Origin: Streptococcus sp. 29887
GTDB taxonomy: Bacteria; Bacillota; Bacilli; Lactobacillales; Streptococcaceae
NCBI RefSeq assembly: GCF_032595075.1
Contig: NZ_CP118735.1
Coordinates: forward strand, 2,240,691 to 2,304,690
Direction: 5' to 3'
DNA: 64,000 nucleotides
Of the stretch, positions 1-4,422 are shown piece by piece. Under the pieces are notes generated by a model that did no database searches, had not been told where the DNA came from, and saw only the letters and a program-made list of their open reading frames with translations. The first letter of the stretch is position 1. Every line of letters starts with the position of its first letter. Made by a program: the position numbers and the translations under genes.

Positions 1-272
1 CCGCTACCATAGATGGCATAGGTAAAACTGGTTTCCCCAGAAGCATTAGGCTCGACAATCCGTCTAGCAATCACACTCTTATGTTCATCTGCCAAATCTG
101 TCAAGACCTCTGTCACCTGGTCACGATTGGCTGTCTGTCTATTGGTATCTTTCCCGATGACATCCACTGCCTGATAAGAACCAAACTCTACAAGACTAAC
201 CTGACCAGCCAAAGCAATCCCCAGGTAAATTGCTACCAATACGGTCGATACTAGAATAAATAAACGTTTCAT
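1..272 (-). CDS. Bacteriocin-associated integral membrane protein (DUF1430 type), N-terminal part
   Basis: The gene runs off the left edge, so only about 90 N-terminal residues are visible. It starts MKRLFILVSTVLVAIYLG, a strong N-terminal membrane segment, and continues into an extracytoplasmic part containing VDVIGKDTNRQTANRDQ. An ATG at 270-272 follows a good GGAGGAG ribosome binding site. In related streptococci, proteins of this type sit between a lactococcin 972-like bacteriocin and an ABC transporter ATPase and are thought to serve in export or self-immunity. It lies 61 nt downstream of the bacteriocin gene on the same strand with no terminator visible between, so co-transcription is likely. 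Family assignment is from remembered sequence; the specific role is inferred. Confidence 0.75.
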   Translation of the reverse strand, partial: MKRLFILVSTVLVAIYLGIALAGQVSLVEFGSYQAVDVIGKDTNRQTANRDQVTEVLTDLADEHKSVIARRIVEPNASGETSFTYAIYGS

Positions 273-333
273 CGTCTCCTCCAAAGAATTGCTTGGAAAC
301 TACAGAAAGTAGTCCCAAGCAAAATGTACTGTG

Positions 334-627
334 TTAATAGTTGTAATAGAAAGCTGCTTTCTCTCCCCGTTTTGTACTAATCCATGCACGAGAGGTCTGT
401 CCTGCCTGTGCATACCCTTTACTTGAGGCTCCGGTCCATCTACTTACGACAGTTGAACTATGGTAGCGACTGCTGTGATAATAGTTTGAATAGGCGCCAC
501 CATTTGCTGCTCCGTACGTCCAAACTCCACCGCCAGGATACTGTACAGCCGCTGAAGCCACTGCTGTTCCGCCAATTGTTGCTGCAAGTCCCGCGATGAG
601 TGCAAATTTTTTAAGTGTCTTTTTCAT
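334..627 (-). CDS. Lactococcin 972-family bacteriocin precursor
   Basis: A 97-residue secreted protein with a Sec-type signal peptide: basic start MKKTLKKF, a hydrophobic core, and a likely cut after AVASA near residue 25. The mature part of about 70 residues opens with VQYPGGGVWTYG and is rich in Gly, Ser, Tyr and His, which is characteristic of lactococcin 972, an inhibitor of septum formation that binds lipid II. Start is set by AAAGGAG nine bases upstream of ATG at 625-627. It precedes a DUF1430 membrane gene, the usual partner. No obvious own promoter lies between it and the small peptide ORF upstream, so it probably depends on the ComR-box promoter at 818-859. Family call is confident; regulation is inferred. 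Confidence 0.9.
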   Translation of the reverse strand: MKKTLKKFALIAGLAATIGGTAVASAAVQYPGGGVWTYGAANGGAYSNYYHSSRYHSSTVVSRWTGASSKGYAQAGQTSRAWISTKRGEKAAFYYNY

Positions 628-725
628 TTTAATTTTCTCCTTTTGTTTTTCTGTTTTATTGTTTACTTTTTAGGTATAACTTCCTTTCATGGAATATAGA
701 CCTTTTCAAAAATACATCTCATTTT

Positions 726-782
726 CTATCCTCTCTTTATCCACCAACCTGAAATATCCAAAATTTTGAAATAGCCAAACAT
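726..782 (-). CDS. Candidate short double-Trp peptide pheromone (ComS/XIP-like)
   Basis: An 18-codon ORF, MFGYFKILDISGWWIKRG, too short for routine annotation. ATG is at 780-782, stop TAG at 726-728. It has an AAAGGAG ribosome binding site (793-799) and a TATACT -10 (818-823). A GACA-N4-TGTC palindrome lies 24 nt upstream of the -10, the same spacing as the comX promoter in this window. ComS precursors in several streptococci are 17-32 residues, hydrophobic at the N-terminus, with a WW motif near the C-terminus (S. mutans ComS is 17 residues with DWW). The C-terminal part around SGWW would be the mature signal. It lies between two ComR-like receptors and a bacteriocin. Existence and function are inference from architecture. 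Confidence 0.6.
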   Translation of the reverse strand: MFGYFKILDISGWWIKRG

Positions 783-817
783 ACTTTCTTAACTCCTTTA
801 ATTTTATTTACATTATG

Positions 818-859
818 AGTATATCTAGTTTCTACAAAATCACCAATGACAGCAATGTC
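818..859 (-). promoter_or_regulatory. ComR-type box and promoter of the peptide/bacteriocin unit
   Basis: On the minus strand a palindrome ATGACATTGCTGTCAT (846-861) has the GACA-N4-TGTC core of ComR boxes at 848-859. A 24-nt spacer containing a TTTT tract leads to TATACT (818-823). There is no -35 hexamer, as expected for a promoter that needs an activator. The comX promoter at 23502-23543 has the same core, the same 24-nt gap and a TTTT tract at a similar place. The outer arms differ between the two sites, which could give receptor specificity. Confidence 0.6.
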
Positions 860-905
860 ATCAAAAAATACTCTTCAAACCCTAAAAAGTAATAAAGAGA
901 TAGAA

Positions 906-945
906 AAAGACCTAAAAGACGAACAATCTCATCTTTTAGGTCTTT
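906..945 (-). terminator. Rho-independent terminator of the ComR-like operon
   Basis: A perfect 14-bp inverted repeat, AAAGACCTAAAAGA at 906-919 and its complement at 932-945, with a 12-nt loop. On the minus strand it is followed by TTTTT. It lies 35 nt past the stop of the downstream regulator. Confidence 0.8.
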
Positions 946-979
946 CAGCGATGACATTCATGTCACCGATAAATTATAG

Positions 980-1891
980 TTACAAATATTTTTTCAAATC
1001 TTCTTGCCATTGCTTTTCTAACATGGTTACCAAATGTGCATCTTCAATCATATCAGCAAATAGTTTTGCTTTTTGATAGAACCCTTCTGCCAAACTATAC
1101 TTATTCTCCACAACAAGAGCATGTTTCCAATGCAACATAAGTAAAATAGGTTTCTTTTGAAAATCCTGTGTTTTCTCCATTATTTCTTGAAGACAAGCAA
1201 TATAAATGTCAAAAAATTCATAAGACTCCAGCATATCCAAACAAGCCAGACCTGAAAAAATAACATTACTCAGAAGAAATAATTGCTCTGGCTGAACAAG
1301 ATTGACATGCTTTATTAAACGCAATAAGAACGATTGCAACTTACCAACTTCTGATAACTGATTTTTCTTGTTTTTTATATGTGCAAATACACTGACGAAA
1401 TACAGACTAATCAGTTCTAAATCCTTCAACGAAAAGACTTCTTTCTCCTCAAGTTCAGGTAAATACGTTTCTAATAAGGCTACCGCATATTCTGGATGTT
1501 GTGTACGAATAACATCCAAAATCGCTCTTGACGTTTCAACCCACACCGTTTCCTCTGGTGGTAATTGTTCACAATACAGTTCTTCTATTTCATCAAGGTA
1601 TTGTTCCTTTTTATCCAACACCTCCACCTTATTATATATCGGCTCCCGCAACAACTTGTACTTGAGTTCCAAATAGCCCTGTGGCAGTTCCTTATAGTCT
1701 GGCATCAGGCTATAGGCTGGAATGCCTAAACGCTGGGAAATGTACTCTAGCTTTGGAATAGAGGGTTGCGATTGTCCACTTTCTATCCGAGCTAATTGGC
1801 GTACCGTCAACTCGGATTCATCTCCACAAAAATCTGGACGGCTCAGTCCCTTTTCTAGCCTCAGTTGCTCGATTTTTTGCCCTAAAGTCAT
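980..1891 (-). CDS. ComR/ScuR-like RRNPP transcriptional regulator (second copy)
   Basis: A 303-residue cytoplasmic protein. Residues 5-65 form an XRE helix-turn-helix (LGQKIEQLRLEKGLS, then ELTVRQLARIESGQSQPS). The rest is helical and TPR-like, the peptide-binding region of RRNPP quorum sensors. The ELTVRQL-RIE-G-S-PS pattern closely resembles ComR of streptococci and the ComR paralogues that drive bacteriocin genes in S. salivarius. Start ATG at 1889-1891 follows AGGAGGGGGG. It lies 13 nt after the stop of its paralogue, so they share an operon. The first 95 residues differ from the paralogue at only three positions, while the remainder is strongly divergent until a shared QEDLKKYL end. The target is probably the palindrome at 848-859 (inference). 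Confidence 0.8.
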   Translation of the reverse strand: MTLGQKIEQLRLEKGLSRPDFCGDESELTVRQLARIESGQSQPSIPKLEYISQRLGIPAYSLMPDYKELPQGYLELKYKLLREPIYNKVEVLDKKEQYLDEIEELYCEQLPPEETVWVETSRAILDVIRTQHPEYAVALLETYLPELEEKEVFSLKDLELISLYFVSVFAHIKNKKNQLSEVGKLQSFLLRLIKHVNLVQPEQLFLLSNVIFSGLACLDMLESYEFFDIYIACLQEIMEKTQDFQKKPILLMLHWKHALVVENKYSLAEGFYQKAKLFADMIEDAHLVTMLEKQWQEDLKKYL

Positions 1892-1904
1892 GTCCCCCCT
1901 CCTC

Positions 1905-2804
1905 CTACAAATATTTTTTCAAATCTTCTTGCCACTCTTCTATCAATTTCTGCGCCAGATGGTCATTTCCGATGATTTTGGCAAAAGTTTTAGCTGATTG
2001 GAACATCGGTTCAGCAGCTGAAAAATCTTGTGTCTTTCTCAATAGTTGCTTCCAAATGAGCATCAATACAAGTGGTTTTTTCTGATAATCCTCCGTCGCT
2101 TCCATAACATCCTGCAAACACTCCAGATAGGTATCAAAATAATCATAGTGCTCAATCATTTCAAGGCAGCATAGACCTGAAAAGAGTACATCACGCACAA
2201 TAAAATAATCTTCTTGACGAGTAATTTTAAACTGCTCAACAAGCCGTAACATAAATAAATCTATCTTTTGTCCGTACTGATAGATGTCCTTTCTTTCTAG
2301 CAACTGAAAGAAAAAGAGACGAATTAACAAGATTTCATTAATAGTATAGACTGTTTTAGTTTCCAAGCTCGGTAGATACTCATCTAGTATAGCACTAGCA
2401 AATTCTGGATTTCTACTACTTGTCGTATCTATCGTTGCTTGCAGAACGCTATACACTCGCTGTTCATCTAAAGGTAGCTCTTCGTAATAACGATTATAAA
2501 GGTCTTCTAACTGTAGCTCCTTTTTATCCAACACCTCCACCTTATTATATATCGGCTCCCGCAGCAACTTGTACTTGAGTTCCAGATAGCCCTGTGGCAA
2601 TTCCTTATAGTCTGGCATTAGGCTATAGGCTGGAATGCCTAAACGCTGGGCAATGTACTCTAACTTAGGTATAGAGGGCTGCGATTGACCACTTTCTATC
2701 CGAGCTAATTGCCGTACCGTCAACTCGGATTCATCTCCACAAAAATCTGGACGGCTCAGCCCCTTTTCTAATCGTAAGCGTTCGATTTTTTGCCCTAAAT
2801 CCAT
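1905..2804 (-). CDS. ComR/ScuR-like RRNPP transcriptional regulator (first copy)
   Basis: A 299-residue paralogue of the downstream regulator, with the same XRE DNA-binding domain (residues about 5-65) and a divergent TPR-like helical domain from about residue 96. The length matches ComR (about 299 residues). Start ATG at 2802-2804 is preceded by a G-rich GGGGGG site. A sigma-A promoter is clear upstream: TTGTAA (2867-2872), 17 bp, TATACT (2844-2849), so the operon appears constitutive, as expected for receptor genes. The nucleotide sequence near both gene ends is nearly the same in the two copies, suggesting tandem duplication with exchange of, or rapid change in, the ligand domain. A direct role in classical competence is less likely, because a true comR is usually next to comS elsewhere. 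Confidence 0.8.
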   Translation of the reverse strand: MDLGQKIERLRLEKGLSRPDFCGDESELTVRQLARIESGQSQPSIPKLEYIAQRLGIPAYSLMPDYKELPQGYLELKYKLLREPIYNKVEVLDKKELQLEDLYNRYYEELPLDEQRVYSVLQATIDTTSSRNPEFASAILDEYLPSLETKTVYTINEILLIRLFFFQLLERKDIYQYGQKIDLFMLRLVEQFKITRQEDYFIVRDVLFSGLCCLEMIEHYDYFDTYLECLQDVMEATEDYQKKPLVLMLIWKQLLRKTQDFSAAEPMFQSAKTFAKIIGNDHLAQKLIEEWQEDLKKYL

Positions 2805-2843
2805 ACCAGTCCCCCCACTGCACCTATTTATCCTTACCTAAAC

Positions 2844-2872
2844 AGTATACCATATCTTGCAAGCCTTTACAA
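2844..2872 (-). promoter_or_regulatory. Sigma-A promoter of the ComR-like operon
   Basis: TTGTAA at 2867-2872 and TATACT at 2844-2849 on the minus strand with a 17-bp spacer. It begins right at the T-run of the malQ terminator. Confidence 0.65.
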
Positions 2873-2896
2873 AAAACACCAGCCTAGGCTGATGTT
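2871..2896 (-). terminator. Terminator after malQ
   Basis: A minus-strand stem, ACATCAGCC against GGCTGGTGT, overlaps the malQ stop codon and is followed by six T residues. Confidence 0.7.
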
Positions 2897-4422
2897 TCTG
2901 TCTTTTCTTGTTCTTTCGCTTTGACAATGGCATTCTCACGGCGGTAGGTCACTGTCAAATCAAGCAAGTCCGCCTCAATGGCAGGCGTGAGCTGGTCAGC
3001 AGTCATCCTCCAAGTCCAGTTGCCACCAAGGGTGTTTGGCAGGTTCATACGAGCTGACCCATCCAAGCCGAGCAAGTCCTGCATGGTAGCCACAGCCATA
3101 AAGGCTGGCGAACCGAAAAGCAAACGGAACATGGCATGGCTAACCCTTTCATCCTCACGGCGATTGCTGTACTTGTCTAAGAATTCCTTGCCCTCGTCAG
3201 ACAGTTCGCTCTCATACCAACCCAGAATGGTATCATTATCATGGGTGCCAGTATAGGCTACGACATTGTTGCGGTGGTTGTGCGGCATTTCAATGCTGTC
3301 ACCCTCAGGGTCAAAGGCAAACTGCAAGACTTTCATGCCTGGGAAACCAGTCCTTTCACGCAATTGAATGACCTTATCTGTCACAGTTCCCAAATCTTCC
3401 GCGATAATATTCAAGTCACCCAAGTGGTACTTGATGGTTTCAAAGAGTTCGAAACCTGGTGCTTCCACACGGTAGCCATTGACCGCTGTTTCTTCCCCTG
3501 CTGGAATTTCCCAGAAAGAAGCAAAGCCGATAAAGTGGTCGATCCGTACCATGTCATAAATCTTGAAAGATTCACGCAAGCGAGCTACCCACCAAGTAAA
3601 ACCATCATGTTTCATCGCTTCCCAGTCATAGATTGGATTGCCCCAGAGCTGACCGATTTCTGAAAAGGCATCAGGTGGACAACCTGCAACCACACTTGGC
3701 TTGCCTTCTTCATCCGTCTTGAAGAAGTGTGGATTGGCCCACATATCCGCAGAATCAGCTGCGATATAAATCGGCATATCCCCAACAAACTCGATCCCTT
3801 TGGCATTAGCGTAAGCCTTCAAAGCATGCCACTGGCTGAAGAACAAATACTGGGTAATGCGGTGATAATCCATCTGATCCGCCAAGAGATGACGGTAATA
3901 TTCTAAAGTATCGTGGTAACGCAGACGAGCCCCCTGGTCCTCCCACTCCGTCCATGGCTTGAGGTCAAAATGCTCCTTGATCGCCATGTACTCCGCAAAG
4001 GTATGCAACCAAAAACCATTTTCCTCTGCAAAAGACCAGTAATCCTCTGGCAAGCCCTCTGCCTTTATCGCTTTCACAGCCTTCTCTAAGATTGGACGAC
4101 GACCATAAAAGACCTTGGCATAATCTACTTCTGTATCCTTGTCGCCAAAGTCAATCCCAGCTAAGTCAGCCTCAGTTAACCAACCCTTTTCAATCAAGAA
4201 ATCAAGGTCAATAAAGTGGGTATTTCCGGCAAAGGCAGAGAAAGATTGATAAGGTGAATCCCCGTAACTGGTTGTTCCTAGAGGTAAAATCTGCCAGTAA
4301 CGTTGCTTGGTTCTTTCCAAAAAATCAACAAAATCATAGGCAGCCTGTCCCATAGAACCAATGCCGTATTGACCAGGTAGAGATGAGATGTGCATGAGCA
4401 CACCACTTTGGCGTTCTTTCAT
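2884..4422 (-). CDS. malQ: 4-alpha-glucanotransferase (amylomaltase)
   Basis: A 512-residue GH77 enzyme that disproportionates imported maltodextrins, releasing glucose and longer glucans. Motifs typical of MalQ are visible: SSLPGQYGIGSMG at the N-terminus, the nucleophile region YDMVRIDHFIGF, IIAEDLGT with the acid/base Glu, and YTGTHDNDT near the C-terminal third. Length is normal for Gram-positive MalQ (about 500). It is divergent from malX, with operator-like sequences in the shared 316-bp region. Its -10 TATAAT (4484-4489) and -35 TTGATT (4507-4512) are 17 bp apart, with a MalR-like operator just downstream of the -10. Pneumococcal malQ is also under MalR; no malP follows here. Confidence 0.95.
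   Translation of the reverse strand: MKERQSGVLMHISSLPGQYGIGSMGQAAYDFVDFLERTKQRYWQILPLGTTSYGDSPYQSFSAFAGNTHFIDLDFLIEKGWLTEADLAGIDFGDKDTEVDYAKVFYGRRPILEKAVKAIKAEGLPEDYWSFAEENGFWLHTFAEYMAIKEHFDLKPWTEWEDQGARLRYHDTLEYYRHLLADQMDYHRITQYLFFSQWHALKAYANAKGIEFVGDMPIYIAADSADMWANPHFFKTDEEGKPSVVAGCPPDAFSEIGQLWGNPIYDWEAMKHDGFTWWVARLRESFKIYDMVRIDHFIGFASFWEIPAGEETAVNGYRVEAPGFELFETIKYHLGDLNIIAEDLGTVTDKVIQLRERTGFPGMKVLQFAFDPEGDSIEMPHNHRNNVVAYTGTHDNDTILGWYESELSDEGKEFLDKYSNRREDERVSHAMFRLLFGSPAFMAVATMQDLLGLDGSARMNLPNTLGGNWTWRMTADQLTPAIEADLLDLTVTYRRENAIVKAKEQEKTETSA

Follow-up and report, generated by a model that had tools for sequence, protein, structure and literature searches.

The window analysed here, a stretch of 64,000 nucleotides from the genome of Streptococcus sp. 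29887 (contig NZ_CP118735.1, forward-strand positions 2,240,691 to 2,304,690), opens on a bacteriocin operon that is read from the minus strand, as are the peptide gene, its promoter, the two boxes, the receptor genes and the leader described below. A gene for an scbA-like bacteriocin of the lactococcin-972 family lies at 334..627 (PF09683, TIGR01653). It is followed by the start of an scbB-like gene for a bacteriocin-associated membrane protein (1..272; TIGR01654 on locus L011), which extends beyond the window, and then, outside the window, by an scbC-like gene for an ABC ATPase of the lactococcin-972 type (TIGR03608 on L011). Upstream of the operon stand a short peptide gene with its promoter and two tandem genes for ComR-like receptors, the proximal r1 (303 amino acids; 980..1891) and r2 (299 amino acids; 1905..2804). 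Farther on, an open reading frame (ORF) at 2884-4422 looks by eye like a 4-alpha-glucanotransferase gene (malQ), with sugar-transport genes onward from there.

The peptide gene is an unannotated ORF of 18 codons, MFGYFKILDISGWWIKRG, running from an ATG at 782 to a TAG at 726. It is preceded by the Shine-Dalgarno sequence AAAGGAG (793..799), a TATACT -10 element (818..823) and box B, GACATTGCTGTC (848..859), the promoter operator with its ComR-box core; the gap between box B and TATACT is exactly 24 nt. A preliminary description, made from the sequence alone, had listed the ORF, AAAGGAG, TATACT and a GACA-N4-TGTC palindrome 24 nt upstream, and re-reading the sequence found each of them where it had been placed. 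It had also claimed that the promoter has no -35, and a consensus scan of 600-1100 indeed gave no sigma-70-type match with a -35 at this TATACT. That description mentioned neither that both adjoining regulators are of the ComR type, nor the lactococcin-972 bacteriocin downstream, nor a second box at 953-964. When the box was searched across the whole genome together with a loosely defined -10, 6 matches were obtained versus 11 in the reversed control. By themselves the two elements are thus not above chance, and the case for a peptide gene rests on its context and its conservation.

The locus comparison covered 85 entries: the window, the competence locus of the same genome (L012) and 83 other loci. 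At an E-value of 1e-60, r1 has matches in 66 of 284 genomes of the genus, competence-type receptors included, and none in the other 218. The scb family is defined here by a score above 300 bits and comprises 30 genomes, 10 of them S. suis-type and 20 mitis-type (these labels, like the type names alpha, beta, gamma and delta used below, were coined in this analysis); genome G258, with a split receptor, is counted apart. The preliminary description had named conservation beside the same regulators in other genomes as a check on its proposal, and the full set of box, 24-nt spacer, -10 element, Shine-Dalgarno sequence and short ORF with a double tryptophan (WW) was found 3' of an orthologous ComR-like gene in 9 of the 10 S. 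suis-type and 7 of the 20 mitis-type loci. Two of those nine are imperfect: the box of L069 carries a mismatch, and the ORF of L072 continues past the WW into bacteriocin-like sequence. L070 is the only S. suis-type locus without a WW precursor after box B.

The window peptide is identical in six S. suis-type genomes, where only 1 of 57 nucleotide sites varies, synonymously; in a second peptide type, 1 of 48 sites varies over five genomes with no amino-acid change. The 60 nt downstream of the ORF hold 34 and 31 ungapped variable sites in the two types (counts that take in indel shifts), and the 60 nt upstream, promoter included, also vary little (3 and 7 sites). The peptides of the different types end in or contain SGWWIKRG (alpha, the type of the window), FGDWWKGR (beta), GDVWWTI, GDVWWTF or GDIWW (gamma), and VTWWFK or FGDWWHG (mitis). 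It might still be argued that the ORF is no signal but a chance or decaying frame, and that peptides from elsewhere open the promoter, as in pneumococcal strains without scbS. Pneumococcal scb does respond to a peptide that it does not itself encode (PMC11796350), and 13 of the 20 mitis-type loci keep the receptor gene and the box without a WW ORF. However, the ORF of the window is invariant at the amino-acid level in six genomes with its start codon, Shine-Dalgarno sequence and WW intact, and in the other types this position is taken by a WW ORF of different sequence, so we regard this alternative as highly improbable. Since four residues (IKRG) come after the WW in the precursor, the mature signal is probably formed by its last 6-8 residues.

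Both regulators carry ComR_TPR (PF18710, 2.6e-56 and 8.4e-59), and at an E-value of 0.001 the two have five PDB sequence matches, every one a ComR chain by name or published assignment. Rgg/SHP systems combine an Rgg receptor with a hydrophobic SHP-type peptide that lacks a WW; membership in that group was considered and rejected, because ComR_TPR is the best Pfam match, the PDB matches are ComR and the peptide has a WW. Published structural work describes ComR as a monomer in the apo form, with its helix-turn-helix (HTH) domain sequestered; K100 anchors the C-terminus of the peptide, and the dimer contacts the GACA half-sites through R35 and R39 (PMC5131891). In alignments read by eye (r1 against 6HU8, r2 against 5JUB and 6HU8), R35, R39, K100 and Y91 of Streptococcus thermophilus ComR are kept in both receptors. 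Some residues involved in ComR activation are changed, T90 to I, R92 to N and E117 to P or L, and the HTH-sequestering acids E117, E118, E146 and D147 read P, E, E and T in r1 and L, D, D and E in r2 (also by eye).

The closest published relative is the ScbR/ScbS pair, described in 2024 from S. pseudopneumoniae and S. pneumoniae, which switches a lactococcin-972-type operon and not competence (PMC11796350). In S. pseudopneumoniae, the ComR homolog ScbR and the 19-residue precursor MFGFIMFLTYFSFGDWWHG control streptococcin B, and the last six residues of this precursor of the streptococcin inducing peptide (SIP) switch on the scb promoter in pneumococcus via ScbR and AmiCDE (PMC11796350). The motif given for ScbR, taaggacattg(a/g)tgtccttg-n20-tataat, also places the -10 at 24 nt from the box core (PMC11796350). 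Two of the mitis-type loci, L073 and L164, carry a precursor, MFGFIMFLTNFSFGDWWHG, that differs from the published SIP precursor in one residue. A ComR-type receptor directly upstream of the operon, a box core 24 nt from the -10, a short WW precursor and an scbABC operon of the lactococcin-972 type are all present at the window locus. Because the parts and their order are the same, we count the locus, on its sequence, among the ScbRS systems, as one of the S. suis type. It differs from the published pair in its peptide and receptor types, in having two tandem receptors for one peptide and in a sigX-like fragment in the leader of the operon. It may differ as well in the second conserved box: the text of PMC11796350, as far as available, gives one motif per locus, but both the legend of its Figure 1A and its discussion use the plural for ComR binding sites, which leaves room for a second site there too.

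Two other systems share some of these features. ScuR and SarF of S. salivarius are likewise related ComR paralogs governing bacteriocin or transporter genes but, unlike at the window locus, no pheromone gene was found near scuR or sarF, and the targets are salivaricins and sptAB (PMC6703854). Lcn351 of S. suis WUSS351 is a lactococcin-972-type bacteriocin whose mature sequence starts with AVQYPDGGVWTYGASNGG, close to the stretch AVQYPGGGVWTYGAANGG of the window; in contrast to the window locus, the available text names no regulator or pheromone for it (PMC9067509).

We favour, with a probability of roughly 0.88, a ScbRS-type quorum-sensing switch over the bacteriocin operon as the function of the locus, judging from its sequence and from its relatives. 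Points against it are the loose pairing of receptors with peptides, the 13 mitis-type loci that lack a WW ORF and the changed ComR activation residues. The proposal of the preliminary description, a precursor of a ComRS-like pheromone with the WW signal in its C-terminal part, gains support from the ComR_TPR receptors, the anatomy of operator and promoter, the conservation of the ORF and the published ScbR/ScbS relative (PMC11796350).

The competence ComRS of S. suis (PMC4072589) shares with the window system the receptor family, the box core, the 24-nt spacing (measured here), a WW-type precursor and a conserved HTH domain combined with a ligand half that varies with pherotype, but it drives comX from a separate locus and, in the window genome, has a single box near the comR stop codon. 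A canonical-looking comRS is present elsewhere in this genome (C1:51675-52565) with comX, carrying its own box, near 65.5 kb, so the window locus is not the comRS pair of the competence locus that controls comX. Could it be a second competence ComRS, whose peptide and receptors act on comX, so that competence would reach the bacteriocin only as a secondary target? In this genome both comX and comS have promoters with the same box core and likewise a -10-like hexamer at 24 nt, and cross-binding is therefore possible. A spacing between box and -10 of 24 nt at the window locus versus 19 nt at comS and comX had been considered as a divider between scb and com and was dropped, since the hexamer at 24 nt is TATACT for comS and TAAACT for comX. 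A competence link is also favoured by the sigX-like fragment in the bacteriocin leader. Against it stands the genome's own comRS with a different peptide, MFNFLKFFSGFGQFGEDNWWVK, and we consider a second competence system quite improbable; most likely the locus controls the bacteriocin operon and not competence.

The sigX-like fragment itself was found by local alignment and motif search at 687..722, 3' of the peptide gene, and resembles the first codons of sigX/comX (MRCIFEKVYIP). At the scb loci this stretch matches the start of the S. suis-type comX (TTTGAAAAGGTCTAT and beyond), over 33-39 nt in the better cases. Of 12 loci, 8 have an alignment score higher than that of any of 200 shuffles; the excess is clear in L059, L058, L068 and L071 and smaller in L011, L164, L062 and L073. 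In L061, L063, L067 and L069 it does not rise above the shuffles. A 21-nt leader motif, with one mismatch allowed, gave 14 matches in 13 of the 284 genomes and none in the reversed control. Nine of these are at scb loci, and among the other five only one is sequence-confirmed as comX. MRC[IC]FEKVY[ID]P can be seen in S. suis-type as well as mitis-type scb loci (in L007 from approximately 1593 too) and is broken in some. An 11-codon ORF between scbS and scbA was considered as a second pheromone gene and set aside: it is frameshifted in L058 and L071, has lost its stop in L063 and matches the 5' end of comX. The operon leader probably holds a remnant of a sigX start, left there perhaps by an ancestral comS-comX arrangement, perhaps by later recombination. 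Such a fragment in the leader of a bacteriocin operon appears to be new.

The presence of two receptors and one peptide requires separate consideration. Across the S. suis-type receptors, identity in the HTH domain (residues 1-66) is 92-100% irrespective of type (95% between r1 and r2), and in the ligand domain (101-303) it is 39-59% between types and at least 89% within a type. The ligand domain of r2 is 99% identical to that of the receptor in L068, which adjoins the beta peptide; as L068 is the single genome with a beta peptide, the pairing of beta receptor and peptide rests on that one case. No peptide of this FGDWWKGR type, the likely partner of r2, was found at the window locus. When the r2-type ligand domain of L068, which has the beta peptide, is compared with those of three genomes that lack this peptide (the window, L061 and L070), and these with one another, differences are mostly synonymous, with only 1-4 nonsynonymous differences per pair and a pN/pS of 0.03-0.16. 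The adjacent receptor matches the type of the peptide in 8 of the 10 S. suis-type loci with a peptide (nine, plus G258). Two loci are mispaired. In L071 a delta receptor separates a gamma receptor from a gamma-type peptide; in G258 a broken gamma receptor adjoins an alpha peptide, and the retrieved pieces contain no alpha receptor. In G258 (L114 and L161) the gamma-type receptor is split over two contigs at about residue 165, beside the intact alpha peptide gene.

From these sequences, r2 seems to be a spare receptor for the signal of another strain, and the simplest, though tentative, reading is that it would open the same promoter in response to that strain's peptide. It may instead be a modulator, either an anti-activator or a leftover competing with r1 for the box. 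Deletion of sarF slightly raises promoter activity, from which a mild inhibition of ScuR by SarF was suggested (PMC6703854), and r2 has no adjoining peptide and an HTH domain close to that of r1. Yet its ligand domain is nearly that of a receptor standing beside a WW peptide, its pN/pS is low and comparable receptor arrays exist at the com locus; we consider a modulating role conceivable, with the odds somewhat against it.

At the competence locus of the window genome (L012, 2658-4572) two tandem comR genes and a single comS were found. The ligand domain of the upstream comR is 94% identical to receptors that precede a different comS (DFSTSWWNF) in L134 and L135. In G256 (L137, 1472-5398) four comR genes stand in tandem, and a single comS was found (GNWGTWVEE); the first comR is 94% identical to the window-genome receptor beside GEDNWWVK, the second 94% to the receptor of GNWGKWTDG and the third 95% to that of DFSTSWWNF. 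Receptor multiplicity at com is already known, because a published S. suis genome from France carries comR genes of three types, reported together with the advice to test three-pheromone sensing (PMC10995628). For the bacteriocin locus, no report of receptor multiplicity was found in the open-licence literature, and the receptor/peptide pherotypes of the S. suis type at scb appear to be new. Further ComR-like classes with short candidate peptides, MIKFFSLLVSLLWWK, MIKILIFLFITGGWWT, MFKFFNLLGFIGGWWG and MLVLVVAIFWIYK among them, were noticed in L110, L118, L119, L121, L124, L130, L140, L142, L151-L153, L156 and L157.

The second box, box A (GACATGAATGTC; 953..964), is an exact ComR-box core 15 nt past the receptor stop codon and 105 bp from box B, and no -10 hexamer lies 24 nt downstream of it. 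Between the two boxes, after the receptor genes, stands a hairpin resembling an intrinsic terminator (905..946). With at most one mismatch allowed, the spacing could be obtained for 26 of the 30 scb genomes and is 105 bp in 21, 104 bp in three, 106 bp in one and 108 bp in one; in the other four (L069, L074, L077 and L041) box B failed the filter. A genus-wide search with the two-box pattern matched 30 of the 284 genomes and gave none in the reversed control. By their coordinates, 25 of these are scb-family loci (G258 included), G021 and G198 belong to a receptor class approximately 40% identical to r2, and the others are G042, G059 and G060. Additional copies of box A occur approximately 1281 nt past the receptor stop in L066 and approximately 1259 and 1363 nt past it in L077 (there with box B as well), as would result from duplication of a terminator-and-box module between bacteriocin cassettes.

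The idea that box A forms an RNA hairpin at the 3' end of the receptor gene was considered and rejected: it can fold, but arm changes in L073 and L075 are uncompensated. No Rfam family scored above threshold within 1-3000. Box A might also belong to an antisense promoter, as a promoter-like match on the plus strand overlaps it (951-980, 10 of 12 positions), but this is one of 2 such matches versus 2.7 expected.

There is about an even chance that box A is what remains of an earlier pheromone promoter after loss of its -10, the 105-bp spacing being merely inherited length. Another ComR-like class has an exact box at +15 or +16, and 22 of its 23 loci (L108-L113, L115-L117 and L120-L133; the exception is L117) show a hexamer of the TATAAT, TACAAT or TAAAAT type 24 nt from it; the mitis-type box A mostly has TAAAGT at that distance. 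On the other hand, the arms of box A (exact in all 10 S. suis-type loci and in 18 of the 20 mitis-type loci) are kept at least as well as those of box B (9 of 10 and 16 of 20), and the 93-bp spacer is of equal length in the window and the mitis-type L066 despite an ungapped identity of only 42%. Paired boxes also recur 104-105 bp apart in five loci of the class approximately 40% identical to r2 (L139-L142 and L150), with one mismatch in box A in three, and 200 bp apart, as calculated from their positions, in five loci of another class (L151-L153, L156 and L157), with one mismatch in box B in all five; thus eight of these ten carry a mismatch in one box. In the 200-bp class an inverted repeat resembling a hairpin can be seen by eye between the boxes. 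No box pairs 60-150 bp apart were listed at com loci or in the L108-type class (260 nt searched).

With a helical repeat of 10.5 bp, the modal spacings of 105, 104 and 200 bp each correspond to a whole number of turns to within 0.1 turn; three random spacings would do so with a chance of approximately 0.007. This argument is weak, because it was picked post hoc, does not hold for a repeat of 10.3 bp and counts related families as independent. The spacing points to a pair of dimers bound on the same helical face, with a relic of conserved length about equally likely. A second ComR-box without a -10 at a near-constant distance appears to be new, and no description of a looped two-operator architecture for ComRS was found in the literature searched.

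By analogy with the published relatives, the ScbRS-type switch may be envisaged as follows. The 18-residue precursor would be exported and trimmed, and its C-terminal WW peptide (approximately WWIKRG to SGWWIKRG) would be re-imported by an oligopeptide permease and bind r1. The complex would then dimerise, bind box B and recruit RNA polymerase to the promoter lacking a -35, so that more pheromone (a positive feedback) and scbABC would be produced. More tentatively, r2, with a nearly identical DNA-binding domain and a different ligand domain, could open the same promoter for the peptide of other strains. Box A, at a distance from box B of about ten turns of the helix, could, just as tentatively, bind a second dimer and render the switch cooperative. 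The wider proposal, that receptor arrays of S. suis-type strains allow a single bacteriocin promoter, as well as the competence promoter, to answer the pheromones of several strains while the cell broadcasts only one, and that two helically phased operators flanking the receptor terminator act by cooperative looping, must be considered doubtful as a whole.

The results put forward a specific signal sequence, with its target, by which a peptide would control a lactococcin-972 bacteriocin in a pig-associated and zoonotic streptococcus, and place the ScbRS switch known from pneumococcus within a wider, diversified family. The paired boxes pose a new and simple question on how ComR-type activators work and, if the spare receptor functions, strains can meet the signals of their rivals with bacteriocin.
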